Source: Hyphomonadaceae bacterium JAD_PAG50586_4
GTDB taxonomy: Bacteria > Pseudomonadota > Alphaproteobacteria > Caulobacterales > Aquidulcibacteraceae
Reading direction: 5' to 3'
Assembly: GCA_023242925.1 (NCBI GenBank)
Contig: CP096134.1
Span: 2,375,501-2,439,500, forward strand
Length of the DNA: 64,000 nt
Positions 7,799 through 29,958 of the stretch are shown here, piece by piece; within the stretch, counting starts at the first letter, position 1; each line of letters begins with the position of its first letter. The notes under the pieces are model-generated. The model saw only the letters and a program-made list of their open reading frames with translations, was not told the DNA's origin and ran no database searches. Position numbers and translations under genes: made by a program.

Positions 7799-8206
7799 AT
7801 GAACCTGCTCCAGACGCTTGAACAAGAAGAAGTCGCCCGCATCACCAAGGGCAAGACGATCCCCTCTTTCGATCCGGGCGACACGCTGCGCGTGAACGTG
7901 AAGATCAAGGAAGGCGAGCGCGAGCGCGTTCAGGCCTATGAAGGCGTCTGCATCGCCCGTTCGGGTGGCGGCCTCAATGCGAACTTCACCGTCCGCAAGA
8001 TCAGCTTCGGCGAAGGCGTCGAGCGCGTGTTTCCGCTCTACTCGCCGACCGTCGACAGCATCGACGTCGTCCGTCGCGGTAAGGTGCGTCGCGCGAAGCT
8101 TTATTACCTGCGCGACCGTCGCGGCAAGTCGGCCCGTATCGCCGAGCGCGCTGGCGGCGCGCGCGAAGAAGCGTTCGTCGGCGAAGCCAACGAAGCCGCT
8201 GAATAA
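7799..8206 (+). CDS. rplS: 50S ribosomal protein L19
   Basis: L19 lies at the 30S-50S interface. The N-terminus [15 protein letters not shown], the [13 protein letters not shown] segment and the basic [20 protein letters not shown] block are typical. It has 135 residues, with a short acidic tail. It is the last gene of the ffh-rpsP-rimM-trmD cluster and a strong intrinsic terminator follows at 8230. Confidence 0.98.
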
Positions 8207-8229
8207 GCTCTGCAGCTTCTCTAAATTCG

Positions 8230-8260
8230 AAAGCCCCGCGATGACCTCGCGGGGCTTTTC
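8230..8260 (+). terminator. Intrinsic terminator after rplS
   Basis: A 10-bp perfect stem, AAGCCCCGCG with CGCGGGGCTT, around a 7-base loop is followed by TTC. It begins 24 bases after the rplS stop and separates the ribosomal cluster from mtaB. Confidence 0.85.
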
Positions 8261-8311
8261 ATTTCCAGCGCTTGACCTGCCGCCCCCACGCGCTCACCTG
8301 ACCTTTATTCC

Positions 8312-23494: not shown

Positions 23495-24247
23495 TTAGCC
23501 TCCCCGCCGCGCATCAACCGCGAGCGTTGTGAACCCAAGGCACAACGCAATCAGCGATACGAAATAAAACACCGAGCGGAACTCCACGACGCCGCGTTGA
23601 GCCGCATCGAAATGGTGCATGATCGAGAAGCGCGCCAGCACTTCCGCCACGCCGCCGCCGACAAGCCCCGAGAAGAAATCGAGCACCAGCGGCAAGCCAA
23701 GTGCTGTCAGTAGGAAAGAGACCAAGACCGAGAGCACGAACGCCACGATCTGCGCCGGCGTCAGCGCCGACATCATCGATCCGATCGCAAGATAAGCGCC
23801 CGCCATCAGCAAGCTCGCGAGATACGCCGTGAAGATCGCGGCGTTATCCGGCGCGCCAAGGATATTGATCGTGATCCAGAGCGGCAGCGTCATCAGCAGC
23901 GCCGCCGCCGCCACCGACCAAGCCGCCAAGAACTTGCCGAGCACCAGCGACCAGGTGGGCGCAGGCAGCGTCATGAGCAATTCGATGGCCCCGGAGCGGG
24001 TTTCTTCGGCCCAAAGCCGCATCGCCACGGCCGGCAAGAAGACCATGAAAATCCAAGGATGAAACGCGAAGAACGCCGAAAGATCGGCGCGCCGCGCTTC
24101 AAACAAGCCACCGACCTGGAAGGTGAAGAGGCCAATGGAGAAGAGAAACACCGCGACGAACACATAGGCCGTCGGCGTCGTTACATAAGAGAGCAGCTCG
24201 CGGCGATAGATCGCGAGCATGCTGGCTAAACCAGGACGCTTCTTCAC
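23495..24247 (-). CDS. ABC-2 type permease (GldF-like)
   Basis: A 250-residue integral membrane protein with six hydrophobic segments, starting with a cytoplasmic segment (GLASMLAIYRRELLSYVTTPTA) typical of ABC-2/CcmB-like permeases. The conserved RLWAEETRSGAIELLMTLP motif contacts the ATPase in this family. Its start overlaps the ATPase gene's stop by four bases. Together with the GldG-like protein it should form the transport path; substrate unknown. Confidence 0.9.
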   Translation of the reverse strand: MKKRPGLASMLAIYRRELLSYVTTPTAYVFVAVFLFSIGLFTFQVGGLFEARRADLSAFFAFHPWIFMVFLPAVAMRLWAEETRSGAIELLMTLPAPTWSLVLGKFLAAWSVAAAALLMTLPLWITINILGAPDNAAIFTAYLASLLMAGAYLAIGSMMSALTPAQIVAFVLSVLVSFLLTALGLPLVLDFFSGLVGGGVAEVLARFSIMHHFDAAQRGVVEFRSVFYFVSLIALCLGFTTLAVDARRGG

Positions 24248-24966
24248 GTGCGCTCCTCCCCGCGCGTCAGCGCCGCGAATGCGCGTTCCAGTGTGCCGTG
24301 CTCATCGATGAGCGCCGCCGGCGTCTTGTCGGCGATGATACGGCCCTGATCGATGACGATGGCGCGCGTGCACACCGCCTCCACCTCTTCCAGCGAGTGC
24401 GTGGAAATGATGAGGCCACGCTCTTCGCCGAGCTTCTTGATGAGATCACGCACGGCGTGGCGTTGGTTCGGATCGAGGCCGTCCGTCGGTTCGTCCAGGA
24501 TCAGCAGCATCGGATCGTGCAATAGCGCCGCTGCAAAGCCCACACGGCGGCGATAGCCTTTGGAAAGCGTGTCGATCGGGCGATCGATAGAGTCACCCAG
24601 GCGCGCGTCCTGCGCCGCGCGGCGCACAGCGTGGCGCGCGGCCTCGCGCGACATGCCGCGCGTCTCCGCCACGAAGCGCAGAAATGACCACGGTGTCATC
24701 TCGCCATAGAGCGGCGCGCCTTCGGGCAAATACCCCACCCGCTCCTGCGCGCGGCGGCGTTCTTGCGTGATATCAATGTTGAAGACTTTGGCCGTGCCTT
24801 CGTCGGGCTCGAGATAGCCCGCGATCATACGCATGGTCGTCGTCTTGCCTGCGCCGTTAGGGCCCAGGAAGCCGACAATCTCACCGACATCAATCGAAAA
24901 ACCGATACCGTCCACGGCTACGCGGCGGCCAAACGTCTTCCGCAGACCATCGACCTGCAGCAGCAT
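24244..24966 (-). CDS. ABC transporter ATPase (GldA-like)
   Basis: The ATPase of the four-gene operon. ATG 24966 (MLLQVDGLRKTFG) is chosen over an upstream in-frame start because similarity begins there. Walker A is GPNGAGKTTTMRMIAGYL, the signature region LSKGYRRRVGFAAALLHDP, Walker B LILDEPTDGLDPNQ, and the switch His is in ISTHSLEEVEAV. At 240 residues it resembles GldA/NatA-type ATPases. It is the first gene transcribed, with the promoter in the gap to DUF2794. Confidence 0.92.
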   Translation of the reverse strand: MLLQVDGLRKTFGRRVAVDGIGFSIDVGEIVGFLGPNGAGKTTTMRMIAGYLEPDEGTAKVFNIDITQERRRAQERVGYLPEGAPLYGEMTPWSFLRFVAETRGMSREAARHAVRRAAQDARLGDSIDRPIDTLSKGYRRRVGFAAALLHDPMLLILDEPTDGLDPNQRHAVRDLIKKLGEERGLIISTHSLEEVEAVCTRAIVIDQGRIIADKTPAALIDEHGTLERAFAALTRGEERT

Positions 24967-25482
24967 GTGGATAGAAATCCCCGTCGAGAAACGAGCGCCG
25001 CTCTTAGGGCCGTTTGAGCGAAAACACCACCGCTTCTTATCCACAGAGGCGCGGCTTTTCGTCAGATCGCTGCGCACTGATTCCAGCCTGTGTTGCTGGG
25101 CTGTAAACGCGGCTTCGCCTTGGCTGATCGGGCAGGACGGCGCGCATTTTGTGCCCAACGATGCGTGCGCTTCACATCACGCCAGGCAGCAAAACGGTTG
25201 AATTACGCGGAATTTTCTGGCCCAGACATGACAAAGCCCGCGACATGCGCGGGCTTGATCAAAGTGTGGCCGGCCGAAGCGCGCACCGGAGGGGGCTGGG
25301 GGGCTGATGGATTCCCCCGGCACGAGCCTTTCTCCGACCGGCCACGCAACTAAGGTCGCTTCGGGATGGGGCGAGAGCAAGCAGAAAATCAGGCCAAAAG
25401 CCGACCTGCTCCATTTGTAATATTGCCTATCATAGGCTTTCCTGTGTGCAGGATGTTTGCATCCTGTGGAGAACGAAAACGC
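24967..25482. other. Divergent intergenic region with hairpins
   Basis: These 516 bases separate the leftward ABC operon from the rightward DUF2794 gene. No convincing protein gene is present. They contain a short GC hairpin (25234-25256) and a long imperfect hairpin (25266-25345), described as a candidate RNA. AT-richer sequence around 25400-25450 (TTTGTAATATTGCC) is a reasonable place for promoters. Confidence 0.6.
25230..25349 (-). ncRNA. Candidate structured small RNA with terminator
   Basis: GTGGCCGG (25266-25273) pairs with CCGGCCAC (25338-25345). Inside, CGGAG (25287-25291) pairs with CTCCG (25332-25336), and a G run (25298-25303) can pair with CCCCC (25314-25318) around a 10-base loop. 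On the minus strand this is followed by a hairpin with a perfect 9-bp stem (25256 to 25234) and TTTG, resembling an intrinsic terminator. The layout fits a roughly 120-nt RNA read leftward. I could not match it to 6S, SRP, tmRNA or RNase P signatures. It could instead be a leader of the ABC operon or only a DNA repeat. Confidence 0.35.
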
Positions 25483-25794
25483 ATGAGCGGACGCACGGTT
25501 TTCTTCGAACGTCGTGAACTCGACCGCCTTCTTCGATTCTATGGACGCATGGTCGCCGCAGGCGAATGGCGCGACTATGCGATGGATGCGTTGGCCGATC
25601 GCGCGCTCTTCAGCGTCTATCGCCGCGCCAGTGAAGCCCCGCTCTATCAAATCGAAAAGTGTCCGGAGAACGCGCGCAAGCAAGGCGAGTATTGCGTGCG
25701 CGCGATCGACGGTCGCGTCCTGCGCCGCGGTCAAGATTTGGATCAGGTGCTTGCCGTGCTTGAGCCAAAGCGCATGCGCGTGATCGGCGACTAA
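25483..25794 (+). CDS. DUF2794 family protein
   Basis: A 103-residue alphaproteobacterial protein. The core FERRELDRLLRFYGRMVAAG, then EWRDYAMDAL, LYQIEKCPENARKQGEY and the RRGQDLDQVLAVLEPKRMRV ending, match DUF2794. No catalytic motif is evident; function unknown. ATG 25483 is chosen because family similarity begins at FFERRE; an upstream in-frame ATG at 25366 would run through the hairpin-rich gap. A bidirectional hairpin follows. Confidence 0.9.
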   Translation: MSGRTVFFERRELDRLLRFYGRMVAAGEWRDYAMDALADRALFSVYRRASEAPLYQIEKCPENARKQGEYCVRAIDGRVLRRGQDLDQVLAVLEPKRMRVIGD

Positions 25795-25809
25795 CATTTA
25801 GAAGCGGCA

Positions 25810-25842
25810 CAAAAGAAAACGCCCCGGCCAAAGCCGGGGCGT
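25810..25842 (-). terminator. Intrinsic terminator after the Bax-inhibitor-like gene
   Basis: A 10-bp perfect stem (25819-25828 with 25833-25842) around CAAA. Read leftward it is followed by TTTTCTTTTG, a clear T-tract, 27 bases after the stop of the leftward gene at 25869. It may also slow transcripts of the rightward DUF2794 gene. Confidence 0.85.
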
Positions 25843-25868: not shown

Positions 25869-26621
25869 TTAGTCGCGCGGCGAAAGCAATGTCAGGAAGA
25901 AGCGGAACAGGTTGATGAAGGTGATGTACAGGTTCAGCGCGCCCAACGTGGTGGCCACCGACATCGCGCGCAGATCGCCCGCAATGTTGTAGTACATATA
26001 TTTCAGCTGTTGCGTTTCCCAGGCGGTGATCGCCGAGAACAACAACACGCCGATCACGCTAAAGATGATCGAGAAGCCTTCGATCGGCGCGCCGGTGAAC
26101 ATGGCGAAACCGACGTTCACGAGGCCAGCGAGCACCATGCCCCACACGCCCATGATCAGGAACGTGCCCCAACCGGAGAGATCCTTCTTGGTCGTGTAGC
26201 CCCAGAGGCTCAAGCCCCCGAAGGTGGCCGACGTCACCAGGAAGGCCTTGACGATCAGCATCATCCCGTCAGGACGGGCGGCGTACATCATCACCGTGGC
26301 GCCGAGACCGATACCGATCAGCGACACGATCGACCAATAAAGCAGGTTCGCGGCCGTCGGCGACGGATTACGCATGGCAAACATCGAGATGAAGATCAGC
26401 GCCAACGGGCCGAACATCACGACGTACAGCATCGGCGTGTTGAAGAAGAAATTCGACAGCACCGGAACGGTGGCGGCCGCGTAGGCCAAGCCCGCCGACA
26501 GCGCCAAACCGAGTGACATCTTATTATAGACGCCCAGCATGAAGGAACGCAGGCCGGCGTCGACCGCCATATCCGCGCGCCCAGTCGGGATCGACTGTGT
26601 TTGCGAGTGGTAGTCGCTCAT
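25869..26621 (-). CDS. Bax inhibitor-1/YccA family membrane protein
   Basis: A 250-residue protein with seven hydrophobic helices. A polar N-terminus ends GLRSFMLGVYNKMSLGLALS, the usual entry to the UPF0005/Bax inhibitor-1 fold; the C-terminus has ALNLYITFINLFRFFLTLLS with the terminal acidic residues (PRD). ATG 26621 follows AAGGAGG; a TTG one codon earlier is ignored. Members act in calcium leak or protease regulation at the inner membrane; the role here is unassigned. Confidence 0.93.
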   Translation of the reverse strand: MSDYHSQTQSIPTGRADMAVDAGLRSFMLGVYNKMSLGLALSAGLAYAAATVPVLSNFFFNTPMLYVVMFGPLALIFISMFAMRNPSPTAANLLYWSIVSLIGIGLGATVMMYAARPDGMMLIVKAFLVTSATFGGLSLWGYTTKKDLSGWGTFLIMGVWGMVLAGLVNVGFAMFTGAPIEGFSIIFSVIGVLLFSAITAWETQQLKYMYYNIAGDLRAMSVATTLGALNLYITFINLFRFFLTLLSPRD

Positions 26622-26872
26622 CAAAAACCTCCTTGGCGCGGGGAATGCCGCGTCACTGATGCTATATGGCCACGCCTACCTGCCCGAGCAAGGAAAACCG
26701 GACACTCATCCGATTGCGAAACAACCGTGACAGGCTCAAAACTGCCCGGATTGTGGCGGAACATTTCCCTGCCCATCTTGCGTTTCGTTAACGAGCGGAG
26801 CGCCCGCAATGTCCGCTAGAGGGCGGTCGTCGCTAGAATCGCGCTAGCAGGATGGCGCGGAGGTAAGCCGGG

Positions 26873-29800
26873 GTGGCTGACGAGAACGATCCAAACATGC
26901 CGGAGGACGATGTTCCGGAAACTCGCCCAACGGGCGAGACCGAAGCGACGCCCATTGAACAGCCGCAAGACGAGGCGTTGTTTGCCGCCGAGCCCGAGGC
27001 GCCGGTTGAGCCAGAGGCGCCGGTTGAGCCAGAGCCGCCAGCGGAGATTGCCGCAGTTGAAGCTGCGCCCCCGGCGCCGGAGCCTCAATCAGCGCCGGTG
27101 ATCGAGGCGGTTACGCCGCCATTTGAGCCACCCGCTCCGATCTACACCGCAGGCGCAATCGACGAGCCCGTTCTCGATCATGCGCAAGAGACAGAGCCTG
27201 CGAGCGAAGCGGTTGCACCTTTGCTTGAGCCGCCGGCGCCGATCCGCCCCGGCGACACGATCATCAGCGCGCCCGCAGAGCCGGTTGAACCCGCGCCTCC
27301 GCCCGAACCGGAGCACGTGATCGAGGCGATCACGCCGGCGCCAGTTGAACCGCCTGCTCCGCTCTATGCGGCCCAGACCGTCAGCGAACCGGCGCCGCCA
27401 CCGGAGCCAGAGCCGGAGCGCCTGATCGAAGAGATCACGCCGGCGCCTGCCGAACCGCCTGCTCCGCTCTATGCGGCCCAGACCGTCAGCGAACCGGCGC
27501 TGTCACCGGAGCCAGAGCCGGAACCAGAGCCGGAGCGCCTGATCGAAGAGATCACGCCGGCGCCTGCTGAACCGCCTGCTCCGCTCTATGCGGCCCAGAC
27601 CGTCAGCGAACCGGCGCTGTCACCGGAGCCAGAGCCGGAACCAGAGCCGGAGCGCCTGATCGAAGAGATCACGCCGGCGCCGGCTGAACCGCCGGCTCCG
27701 ATCTATGCCGCCCAGACCGTTATCGAGCCGGAGCCTGATCCCGAGCCGCCGCCAGCGATCGAAACACCAGTCGAGCCGCCCCCGCAGGCGCCTTGCCGCC
27801 AAACTATTTCCGCGCTGCCGGCGATCCCGACGAGCCTCCGCCCGAAGACGAAACGCCACCGACCTTGCTGCAGAAGCTCAAATCCAAAGCCGGGCATTCT
27901 TGGGCGGCCTTCCGCGCCTTTGCGGAGCCGCGTTACGTCAAATATTCCGGCGCAGCGCGCGCCTTCGCTGGCGAAATGTGGAATCGCCTCCGCGGCATCA
28001 AGCGCCCGAAGAGTGTGCGCGAAGCCGCCGTGTGGGGCGGCTGGATCGCCGCCGGCGGTGTGGCGTTCATTATCGCCTTCTTCCTCTTCATCACCTGGGG
28101 CTTGCCTTCCACCGACGATCTGTGGGAGGCGCGGCAAGGCCAATCGATCACTTTCGTGGATATCAACGGCCACGTGATCTTGCGCGAAGGTGCGCAAAAT
28201 GCGCCGCCCGTCGATCTTGAAACGCTGCCGCCCTATGTGGCGCAGGCGTTCATCGCCATCGAAGACCGCAAATTCTACGATCACCTCGGCGTCGATTTCG
28301 GCGGCATCATGCGCGCGGGTGCTGAGAACATACGCGCCGGCCGCGTCGTCCAAGGCGGCTCCACGATCACCCAACAGCTCGCCAAGAACCTCTTTCTCAC
28401 GAACGAGCGGTCGTGGCGGCGCAAGGCGCAGGAAATCATGCTCGCGTTCTGGCTCGAAAGTCGGTTCTCGAAGGATGAAATCCTCGCGCTTTATTTGAGC
28501 CGCGTCTATTTCGGCGCTGGCGCCTACGGCATCGAAGCCGCCGCCGAGCGCTATTTCGATCGCCCCGCGCGCGAACTCACGTTGCTGCAATCGGCGATGA
28601 TTGCGGGCCTGGTCAAAGCGCCGTCACGCCTCAATCCGGCACGCCAAGACATCGCCGCCGCACGTGAACGCGCCACCGTCGTGCTCAATGAAATGGTGGC
28701 GCTGGGCTTCATCAGCGCATCGGAACGCGACGCAGCGTTACAAGAAGAGCTCGTCATCAGCCGCCGCAACCCGGCCGGCGTGCTCTCCTATTATCGCGAC
28801 TGGATCGACCCGCTCCTGAACGAAGTGATCGGCAACGAGCGCGACGACTTTGTCATCGAAACCACCATCGACATCGCCGCCCAGCGCGCGGCGGCGGAAG
28901 CCGTTGAACTCGTGCTCGCAGAGCAAGGGGAGGAGCGCCGCGTCAGCCAAGCCGCGGCGCTTGCGCTGGATGATACTGGCGGCGTGCGCGTCATCGTTGG
29001 CGGCCGCGATTACGATCAAAGCCAGTTCAACCGCGCCACACAGGCGCGGCGCCAACCTGGCTCCTCGTTCAAATATTTCATCTACCTCGCGGCGATGGAA
29101 AACGGCCTGACGCCCTGGAGCGTGCGTGAAGATGCGCCGATCACCATTTCCATTCCCGGCCAACCGGATTGGACGCCAGGTAATTACACCAACGAATTTC
29201 ACGGCGCGGTGACGCTCACCAGCGCCTACGCAAATTCGTTCAACATGGTGGCCATCCGCATCGCCAACGAAGTCGGCGGCGACAAAGTTATCGACGTCGC
29301 GCGTCGCTTGGGCGTGACATCGCCACTCTCGAACTATCATTCGCTGGCTCTCGGCGCGCAGGAAATGACCTTGCTTGAAATGGTCAGCGCCTATGGCGCG
29401 ATGGCCGCCGACGGCAATCGGGTCGAAGCGCATGGCGTCACACGCATCCGCCGCGCCAGCAGCGACGAAACCATGTGGAGTTTCCGTCCACAGCATCGCG
29501 GCCGCGTCATCGAAGAGCGACCGTTCCGCTACATGAACCAAATGATGAGCCGCGTCGTCGAAGGCGGCACCGGCACACGCGCGCGCATGAGCGGACGCCA
29601 GATCGGCGGCAAAACCGGTACTGGCAACGATTATCGCGACGCTTGGTTTATCGGCTACACGCCGGGCATGGTGGCGGGCGTGTGGGTCGGCAACGACAAT
29701 TTCACCACCACGGCGCGCGTCACCGGCGGTTCGCTTCCAGCCGACATTTGGGCGCGCTTCATGCCGGTCACATTGCGCAATACGCCAGCGCGTCCGCTCG

Positions 29801-29958
29801 AAATGCCGACGGACGAGGATTATGACCTCGGCGTTGCCGCACCCGTTGAAGAAGGCGTGGCCGTTGTCGGCGCACCCGTCGGCGCAGTGCTTGGCGGACC
29901 GTTGGAAGCGCCGCCGGACACCGAAGACCGCTCGCTCGATTTCGGTCCGGAAGGCTAA
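26873..29958 (+). CDS. Class A penicillin-binding protein with acidic Pro-rich repeat tail (frame break near 27793)
   Basis: A bifunctional peptidoglycan synthase. GTG 26873 follows GGAGG (26859-26863). The first about 305 residues are a Glu/Pro/Ala-rich cytoplasmic tail with 39-residue repeats. A membrane span (WIAAGGVAFIIAFFLFITW) follows, then the GT51 transglycosylase (IEDRKFYDHLGVDFGG, GGSTITQQLAKNLFL) and a transpeptidase with SSFK (SxxK), SFN and KTGTGN motifs. The tail and catalytic part are in different frames; one missing base in CCTTG at 27791-27795 rejoins them (PQAP then LPPNYFRAAGDPDEPP). Corrected length is about 1,028 residues, long because of the tail. It stands alone; a second class A PBP is at 51112. 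Confidence 0.9.
27311..27745 (+). repeat. In-frame tandem repeats in the PBP tail (105/117-bp units)
   Basis: The motif ERLIEEITPAPAEPPAPLY followed by AAQTVSEP and a Pro/Glu spacer recurs with starts at 27311 (variant EHVIEAITPAPVEP), 27416, 27533 and 27650. Spacings are 105, 117 and 117 bp, all multiples of three. The second and third units are nearly identical at DNA level, pointing to recent duplication; the last diverges (PIYAAQTVIEP). Copy number may vary or be misassembled. Confidence 0.9.

Follow-up and report, generated by a model that had tools for sequence, protein, structure and literature searches.

Small RNAs with C-rich loops in Alphaproteobacteria

PmaR of Agrobacterium tumefaciens is reported to have a long, spoon-like stem and a single-stranded, C-rich loop that is required for target regulation; mutation of the loop abolishes this regulation, and the predicted target sites are mostly situated off ribosome binding sites (PMC6234868). 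The same paper reports PmaR to be confined to Agrobacterium and one Rhizobium strain, and describes its flanks as two hypothetical frames (PMC6234868). In Caulobacter, the C-rich loop of GsrN is reported to pair with the G-rich leader of katG and to be needed for regulation (PMC5869019). The alphaR8/SisA-D sRNAs are described as having a 10-nt single-stranded core, UUUCCUCCCU (PMC12559287).

Rfam holds two further families, CC3664 (RF01530) from Caulobacter and BjrC174 (RF02355) from Bradyrhizobiaceae. BjrC174 is described as an abundant Bradyrhizobium sRNA with the highest promoter activity among those tested start sites that had no mapped promoter (PMC4842269). In the literature outside subscription journals we found no paper joining CC3664 and BjrC174, and none on CC3664 in connection with Caulobacter, or on RF02355 or RF01530. 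The RNA described below is of a kind that is already known and catalogued under at least two names; what seems new is that the two Rfam families and the genus of our source genome form one syntenic family.

Organisation of the locus

The window, which is the whole stretch of 64,000 nt of DNA analysed here, contains a single element of this type in the gap between an ABC transporter ATPase gene and a divergent DUF2794 gene (Table 1). On the minus strand, the gap contains in order a promoter-like block, a long hairpin (25345–25266) and a terminator hairpin (25256–25230) with the tail UUUGUC. Folding of the minus strand (127 nt) gave −67.5 kcal/mol (z −4.2), and none of 200 shuffled sequences was equally low, whereas the plus strand folded less well (z −3.2, 4/200 shuffles equally low). 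The closing 8-bp stem, the inner stem and the minus-strand terminator-like hairpin of the initial annotation were all present, as was the extended hairpin as a whole, but the tight G/C stem-loop proposed for its tip was replaced on the minus strand by an open loop, C-rich and about 21 nt long, with two AGCCCC repeats. The region had also been described as free of open reading frames, which does not hold strictly, as an 87-aa frame on the plus strand (25090–25353) and a 206-aa frame on the minus strand (25177–25797) cross the element. The core UUUCCUCCCU of alphaR8 and SisA-D was absent from the element on inspection by eye.

Table 1. Features of the sRNA locus and its neighbours, in window coordinates
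Feature	Position	Strand	Basis
sRNA gene, about 110–120 nt, leftward, ends predicted	25230–25349	−	28-sequence covarying alignment; RF01530 and R2 matches
Main hairpin, outer stem GUGGCCGGUCGG.. pairing ..CCGGCCAC	25266–25345	−	Fold and helix covariation
Closing stem, 8 bp	Arms 25266–25273 / 25338–25345	−	
Apical loop CCAUCAGCCCCCCAGCCCCC, two AGCCCC repeats, proposed pairing site	25291–25310	−	Near-invariant in 28 genus sequences; AGCCCC-AGCCCC core next to DUF2794 in other orders as well
Intrinsic terminator with a GC-rich stem of 9 bp, a loop of 5 nt and a short U-run	25230–25256	−	Arms 25234–25242 / 25248–25256
Promoter-like block GCTTGCTCTCGCC, 10 nt, GCGACCTTAG	25350–25382	−	Genus-wide conservation
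Conserved upstream box, shared divergent region, AAAATCAGGCCAAAAGCCGACCTG ... ATTTGTAAT on plus strand	25385–25422	.	Genus alignment
DUF2794 gene, divergent neighbour, synteny marker	25483–25794	+	PF10984, E 9.6e-37
ABC transporter ATPase gene, next downstream of sRNA	24244–24966	−	PF00005, E 1.7e-28
Bax1-I family gene past DUF2794, second synteny marker	25869–26624	−	PF01027, E 4.5e-47

A sigma-70 consensus scan gave no match in the upstream block, and the intrinsic terminator at 25230–25256 was missing from the list of the consensus scan. By eye, ordered upstream blocks were common to the groups of sequences, including those of other orders, and consisted of TTTTGCC or GACC, an ATTTCGG-like block, CGCC and then a GATA-like or CTTAG-like block, with their window counterparts at 25350–25382 and 25385–25422.

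Two other observations were made on the neighbouring sequence. The palindrome CGCCCCGGCC AAA GCCGGGGCG (25820–25841), located in the gap that separates the convergent DUF2794 and Bax1-I genes, resembles, by eye, a shared terminator. Further along, the first part of a transglycosylase/transpeptidase gene (27793–29958) is also covered, in a different reading frame, by a proline/glutamate-rich repeat frame (26873–28177), and this overlap within 26873–29958 is perhaps due to a frameshift or a misplaced start.

Conservation and covariation within the genus

Of the 29 congeners sampled, 28 contained the element by BLAST; the sole exception (G157) is a genome that is 65% complete. Alignment A1 comprised the window and 27 congeners and was assembled from sequences that BLAST had matched to the entire element. 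L033, truncated at the edge of a contig, and L034, which belongs to another genus, were left out. The RNAalifold consensus contained 31 pairs, and compensatory changes, for which the initial annotation had proposed that orthologues be searched, were present as changes on both sides of 15 of these; 98.5% of the cells were paired, and 55 cells had double changes. None of 500 shuffles matched the share of paired cells, the 15 pairs or the 55 double-change cells, although these counts are not probabilities, since the sequences are related (as the tool itself warns). Controls with a slid structure on A1 gave 2–4 pairs with changes on both sides.

All three helices contributed, with changes on both sides in 5/12 pairs of helix 1 (99.7% of cells paired), 7/11 pairs of helix 2 (98.1%) and 3/8 pairs of helix 3, the terminator, which a single row of A1 (L031) lacks. 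The main hairpin by itself had such changes in 12/23 pairs, a number equalled in 0/500 shuffles. The apical loop was near-constant throughout A1, varying by a few C residues gained or lost, and the pair adjoining it was C-G in 16 sequences and G-C in 12. The paired changes in the stems favour an RNA.

The element was present once in the 4.18-Mb genome, and the many genome-wide copies that would mark a repeat were absent. The three remaining BLAST matches were fragments of 18–28 nt, which excludes a dispersed DNA repeat. An inverted repeat or bidirectional terminator acting at the DNA level, with no function as RNA, would be consistent with the good folding of both strands, but we consider it highly improbable, given the single genomic copy, the compensatory changes surrounding a near-constant unpaired loop, and the homology to sRNA families set out below. 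Covariation and conservation, together with the promoter-like block and the homology to named sRNAs, strongly support the earlier proposal of a leftward structured RNA with its own terminator, and the identity of the element as an sRNA is strongly supported.

Relation to Rfam families and a genus model

No Rfam family reached its gathering score anywhere in the window, which excludes a known housekeeping RNA and agrees with the earlier statement that the element is not 6S, SRP, tmRNA or RNase P RNA; asX2, the Trp and Leu leaders and SAM-SAH all stayed under their Rfam cut-offs. The element does, however, have known relatives: CC3664 matched it from end to end below the cut-off, and its place is common to CC3664 and BjrC174 loci. 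The RF01530 match (25342–25235) scored 32.4 bits (cut-off 60), with an E-value of 0.0013 (0.00049 in a smaller search), and covered model positions 1–136, including the closing stem, the C-rich loop and the terminator, with eight positions marked as non-standard pairs. RF02355 gave 16.4 bits on the element (E 1.5, cut-off 45), which is meaningless taken alone, and in the source genome its only match among those listed lay off the sRNA (24.4 bits). This latter site (L293, G000:C1:590380-590475) holds a perfect 12-bp terminator-like palindrome.

Across the order, RF01530 reached E 0.01 in 52/200 genomes, 18 of them above the cut-off, and in 15 of the 16 congeners listed; the class search gave a match in 1/142 genomes. 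The source genome missed E 0.01 in both many-genome searches (order and class). A second RF01530 match at 237–296 bp from the first was found in ten genomes of the order. Loci L035–L045 and L048 carry a second, diverged sRNA copy about 240–300 bp away, some with loops such as CAGCCCCUCCAGCCC, and in a few genomes a second match lies at another place.

Model R1, built from alignment A1, detected 27/31 loci outside the genus (L005, L034–L063) at E 0.01, with lower scores for L005, L051, L052 and L055. In the class search R1 gave a match in 6/385 genomes, and those adjoining DUF2794 were in the source genome, G178 and G572. The matches L068–L070 were rejected, having no adjoining DUF2794 in tblastn and being, by eye, plain terminators or located at a tRNA-like stretch. 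Weak R1 matches were also obtained at other places in the window, of which that at 8191–8266 scored highest (24.4 bits, E 0.0038).

Gene order at the sRNA loci

Within the flanks of about 1.5 kb of the 29 RF01530 loci (L035–L063), searched by tblastn with the window proteins, DUF2794 was found at 26 (all except L052, L060 and L062) and Bax1-I at 22, while the ABC ATPase adjoined just one (L061). Among the genus loci (L001, L006–L033), DUF2794 was found in 25/29, and L020 stops at a contig edge. DUF2794 had no match at L022, L027 and L028 in the genus or at L034 in another genus, nor in the corresponding search of genomes G169, G163, G166 and G171, which are 57 to 96% complete. At these four loci the RNA is kept near Bax1-I, and it therefore appears to be independent of DUF2794.

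These data bear on a cis-acting role, in which the element would be a leader or attenuator of the downstream ABC transporter genes, or a part of DUF2794 control. Its position in the gap between those genes and the divergent promoter region that it has in common with DUF2794 would suit such a role, which we nevertheless judge improbable: the element ends in a conserved terminator of its own, some 260 nt ahead of the start of the ABC ATPase gene, the ATPase gene is a neighbour at the single RF01530 locus named above, and the RNA is directed away from DUF2794 and is kept where the latter was not found.

A ybhL leader (RF00520) was observed farther along the locus in Mesorhizobium sp. J18 (L127:4254-4315) and Chelativorans sp. 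ZYF759 (L119:4220-4281), where it presumably precedes a Bax1-I gene.

C-rich-loop hairpins at DUF2794 loci beyond the order

For the scan by DUF2794 alignment we used the best 80 named loci of a larger number, some of which are truncated by a contig end, on the upstream side in L116 and L121 and on the downstream side in others. The strict motif AGCCCC-AGCCCC was present on the expected side and strand in 48 of these best 80 loci, and the number rose to 59 when looser C-rich-loop hairpins were counted as well, the looser criterion having been fixed after the strict matches were known and altered between scans. The corresponding control counts per 80 (strict, then strict or loose) were 0 and 3 for the opposite strand, 0 and 4 for the downstream plus strand, and 0 and 0 for the downstream minus strand. 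Upstream of DUF2794 the strict motif was also present in 17/30 further loci of the order and 11/30 further loci of the class, and in that scan it was absent from 355,874 bases of downstream control. The names attached to strict-motif loci include Caulobacter, Phenylobacterium, Afipia, Rhodopseudomonas and Rhodoplanes, as well as Bosea, Kaistia, Roseibium, Stappia and Pannonibacter.

A scan at Rfam gathering scores covered 40 of the 80 named loci. BjrC174 was above its cut-off in eight (L122, L124, L125, L129, L153, L158, L170 and L171), always on the expected side and strand, and CC3664 in one (L109, Caulobacter vibrioides T5M6). As the strict motif was present in 21 of these 40 loci, 12 of the 21 are left nameless at the Rfam cut-offs. 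Below the cut-off, matches at the same spot were obtained with BjrC174 for L118 (43.9 bits), L110 (35.8) and L126 (28.1), and with CC3664 for L099 (42.2 bits). At locus L170, BjrC174 matches with 173 bits beside DUF2794 in a record labelled Frankia sp. RB7, which points to probable mislabelling or to contamination of the assembly.

We folded 59 strict-motif sequences (the 48 named loci and 11 of 28 others). In all 59 the loop is closed by 8 pairs or more, and in 56 it is mostly unpaired. The mean z was −3.2 relative to shuffled flanks, which reached an equal number of closing pairs in 0 to 16 tries out of 60; L149 (−0.4) and L177 (−0.8) were weak. The folded sequences and alignment A3 were picked by AGCCCC-AGCCCC, so that the constancy of the motif in them is by construction. 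Variant loops occur at the same place, namely CCCCAAGCCCCCC in Nitratireductor and Chelativorans, CCCCUCCCCCC or CCCCUACCCCCC in Pseudovibrio, and GCCCCCAGCCCCC in Parvularculaceae and Marinicaulis metagenome-assembled genomes.

In 60 regions taken from families of the class in which DUF2794 matched less well, there were one strict and three loose matches (0 and 2 in the control), among which L219 alone looked genuine by eye, and 19 further named loci that had no earlier match gave 3 against 0 in the control. In family f24 (perhaps Rhodobacteraceae), 2/11 new loci matched, as compared with 1/11 in the control, and these low counts make the presence of the RNA in this family only suggestive. 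Similar hairpins with a AGCCCCCACCC- or GCCCCCACCC-type loop were seen at L181, L184, L300, L307 and L174 (labelled Jannaschia), which are too few for a claim.

Model R2 was held out from the order, being made of 22 hairpins of which none is labelled Caulobacterales; rows L111, L129, L132 and L177 are broadly labelled, and the label of L170 (Frankia) is at odds with its sequence. In the window R2 gave a single match, at 25343–25268 on the minus strand (30.5 bits, E 2.7e-4, with E-values from a short calibration). Across the order it reached E 0.01 in 57/200 genomes and in 8 of the 16 congeners listed; in this genome-wide search the source genome (G000) fell short of significance at E 0.01. Where the position of DUF2794 was known, 9/13 R2 matches were within 1 kb of it, as were 3/4 additional R2 loci.

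Predicted mode of action

We propose that the element probably encodes a trans-acting sRNA of about 115 nt, the genus counterpart of Caulobacter CC3664 and Bradyrhizobium BjrC174. It would be transcribed leftward in this genus, its rigid stem would present the two AGCCCC repeats, and the loop may pair with G-rich stretches in several mRNAs and so alter their translation or stability, in the manner of PmaR and GsrN.

Loop complements were counted around 439 starts predicted by a crude gene caller in 464 kb of the 4.18-Mb genome. With this caller, 7-mers complementary to the loop were found at 37/439 starts, as compared with 25/439 in the coding control and 25/439 in the upstream one; the numbers for 6-mers were 89, 75 and 71, for 8-mers 8, 9 and 9, and for reversed 7-mers 13, 1 and 11. 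A search for the exact extended loop complement gave a single further site in this genome; the only other exact GGGGGCTGATGG lies within an open frame adjoining a frame that is transposase-like by eye. As complements are not clearly enriched at starts and the lone other GGGGGCTGATGG site lies in an open frame, pairing in trans through the C-rich loop is proposed by analogy.

The main rival is a role mainly through protein, in which the AGCCCC repeats would dock a C-binding RNA-binding protein that is sequestered or carried by the RNA. Protein-titrating RNAs typically carry repeated motifs in their loops, and the presence of such motifs here would suit this reading, as would the lack of a clear enrichment of loop complements at gene starts and the recurrence of the AGCCCC repeats while the stems change, in rows that were picked by this motif. 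The variants CCCCAAGCCCCCC and CCCCUCCCCCC, located at the same place, retain C-richness but not the exact motif, and other alphaproteobacterial sRNAs with C-rich loops are reported to work by pairing, and for these reasons we regard protein docking as possible but rather unlikely.

Comparison with known systems

Beyond the source genus, we give about even chances to the broader reading of a single ancient sRNA that comprises CC3664, BjrC174 and the window RNA, inherited at the DUF2794 locus in Caulobacterales, Rhizobiales/Hyphomicrobiales, Parvularculaceae and perhaps Rhodobacteraceae, and acting as a core post-transcriptional regulator, maybe with PmaR as a branch. The stems of such an RNA would drift by compensatory change around a C-rich loop that is near-fixed. 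If this is true, these bacteria have an ancient sRNA as a core post-transcriptional regulator, of which PmaR may be a further branch. Two lineage-named Rfam families thus named apart seem to belong to a single, widely conserved sRNA with a loop that is steadier than its stems, which provides a testable candidate for a regulator shared by several alphaproteobacterial orders, including the tractable Caulobacter and Bradyrhizobium, and a means of finding and naming the RNA where Rfam is silent at its cut-offs, as in the window.

The likeness to GsrN is in the proposed mode of action only, as the loop of GsrN is in its 5′ part. PmaR and the window RNA have a long stem and a C-rich loop in common. 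BjrC174 resembles the window RNA in its place divergent from DUF2794, its C-rich tandem loop and its long stem, of which place and loop form no part of Rfam's definition, but the Rfam model is longer (201 positions), the stem sequences are different, and the model leaves the window copy unrecognised (16.4 bits). CC3664 differs in that the window RNA, at 32.4 bits, falls short of the 60 bits set for the family, and in that twelve RF01530 loci have a second copy about 240–300 bp further on, whereas one copy was found in the window genome. CC3664 is alike in having an end-to-end match, the same loop core (CAGCCCCCC..AGCCCC) and terminator type, and loci that share with the window a place divergent from DUF2794, which is not part of Rfam's definition of the family.
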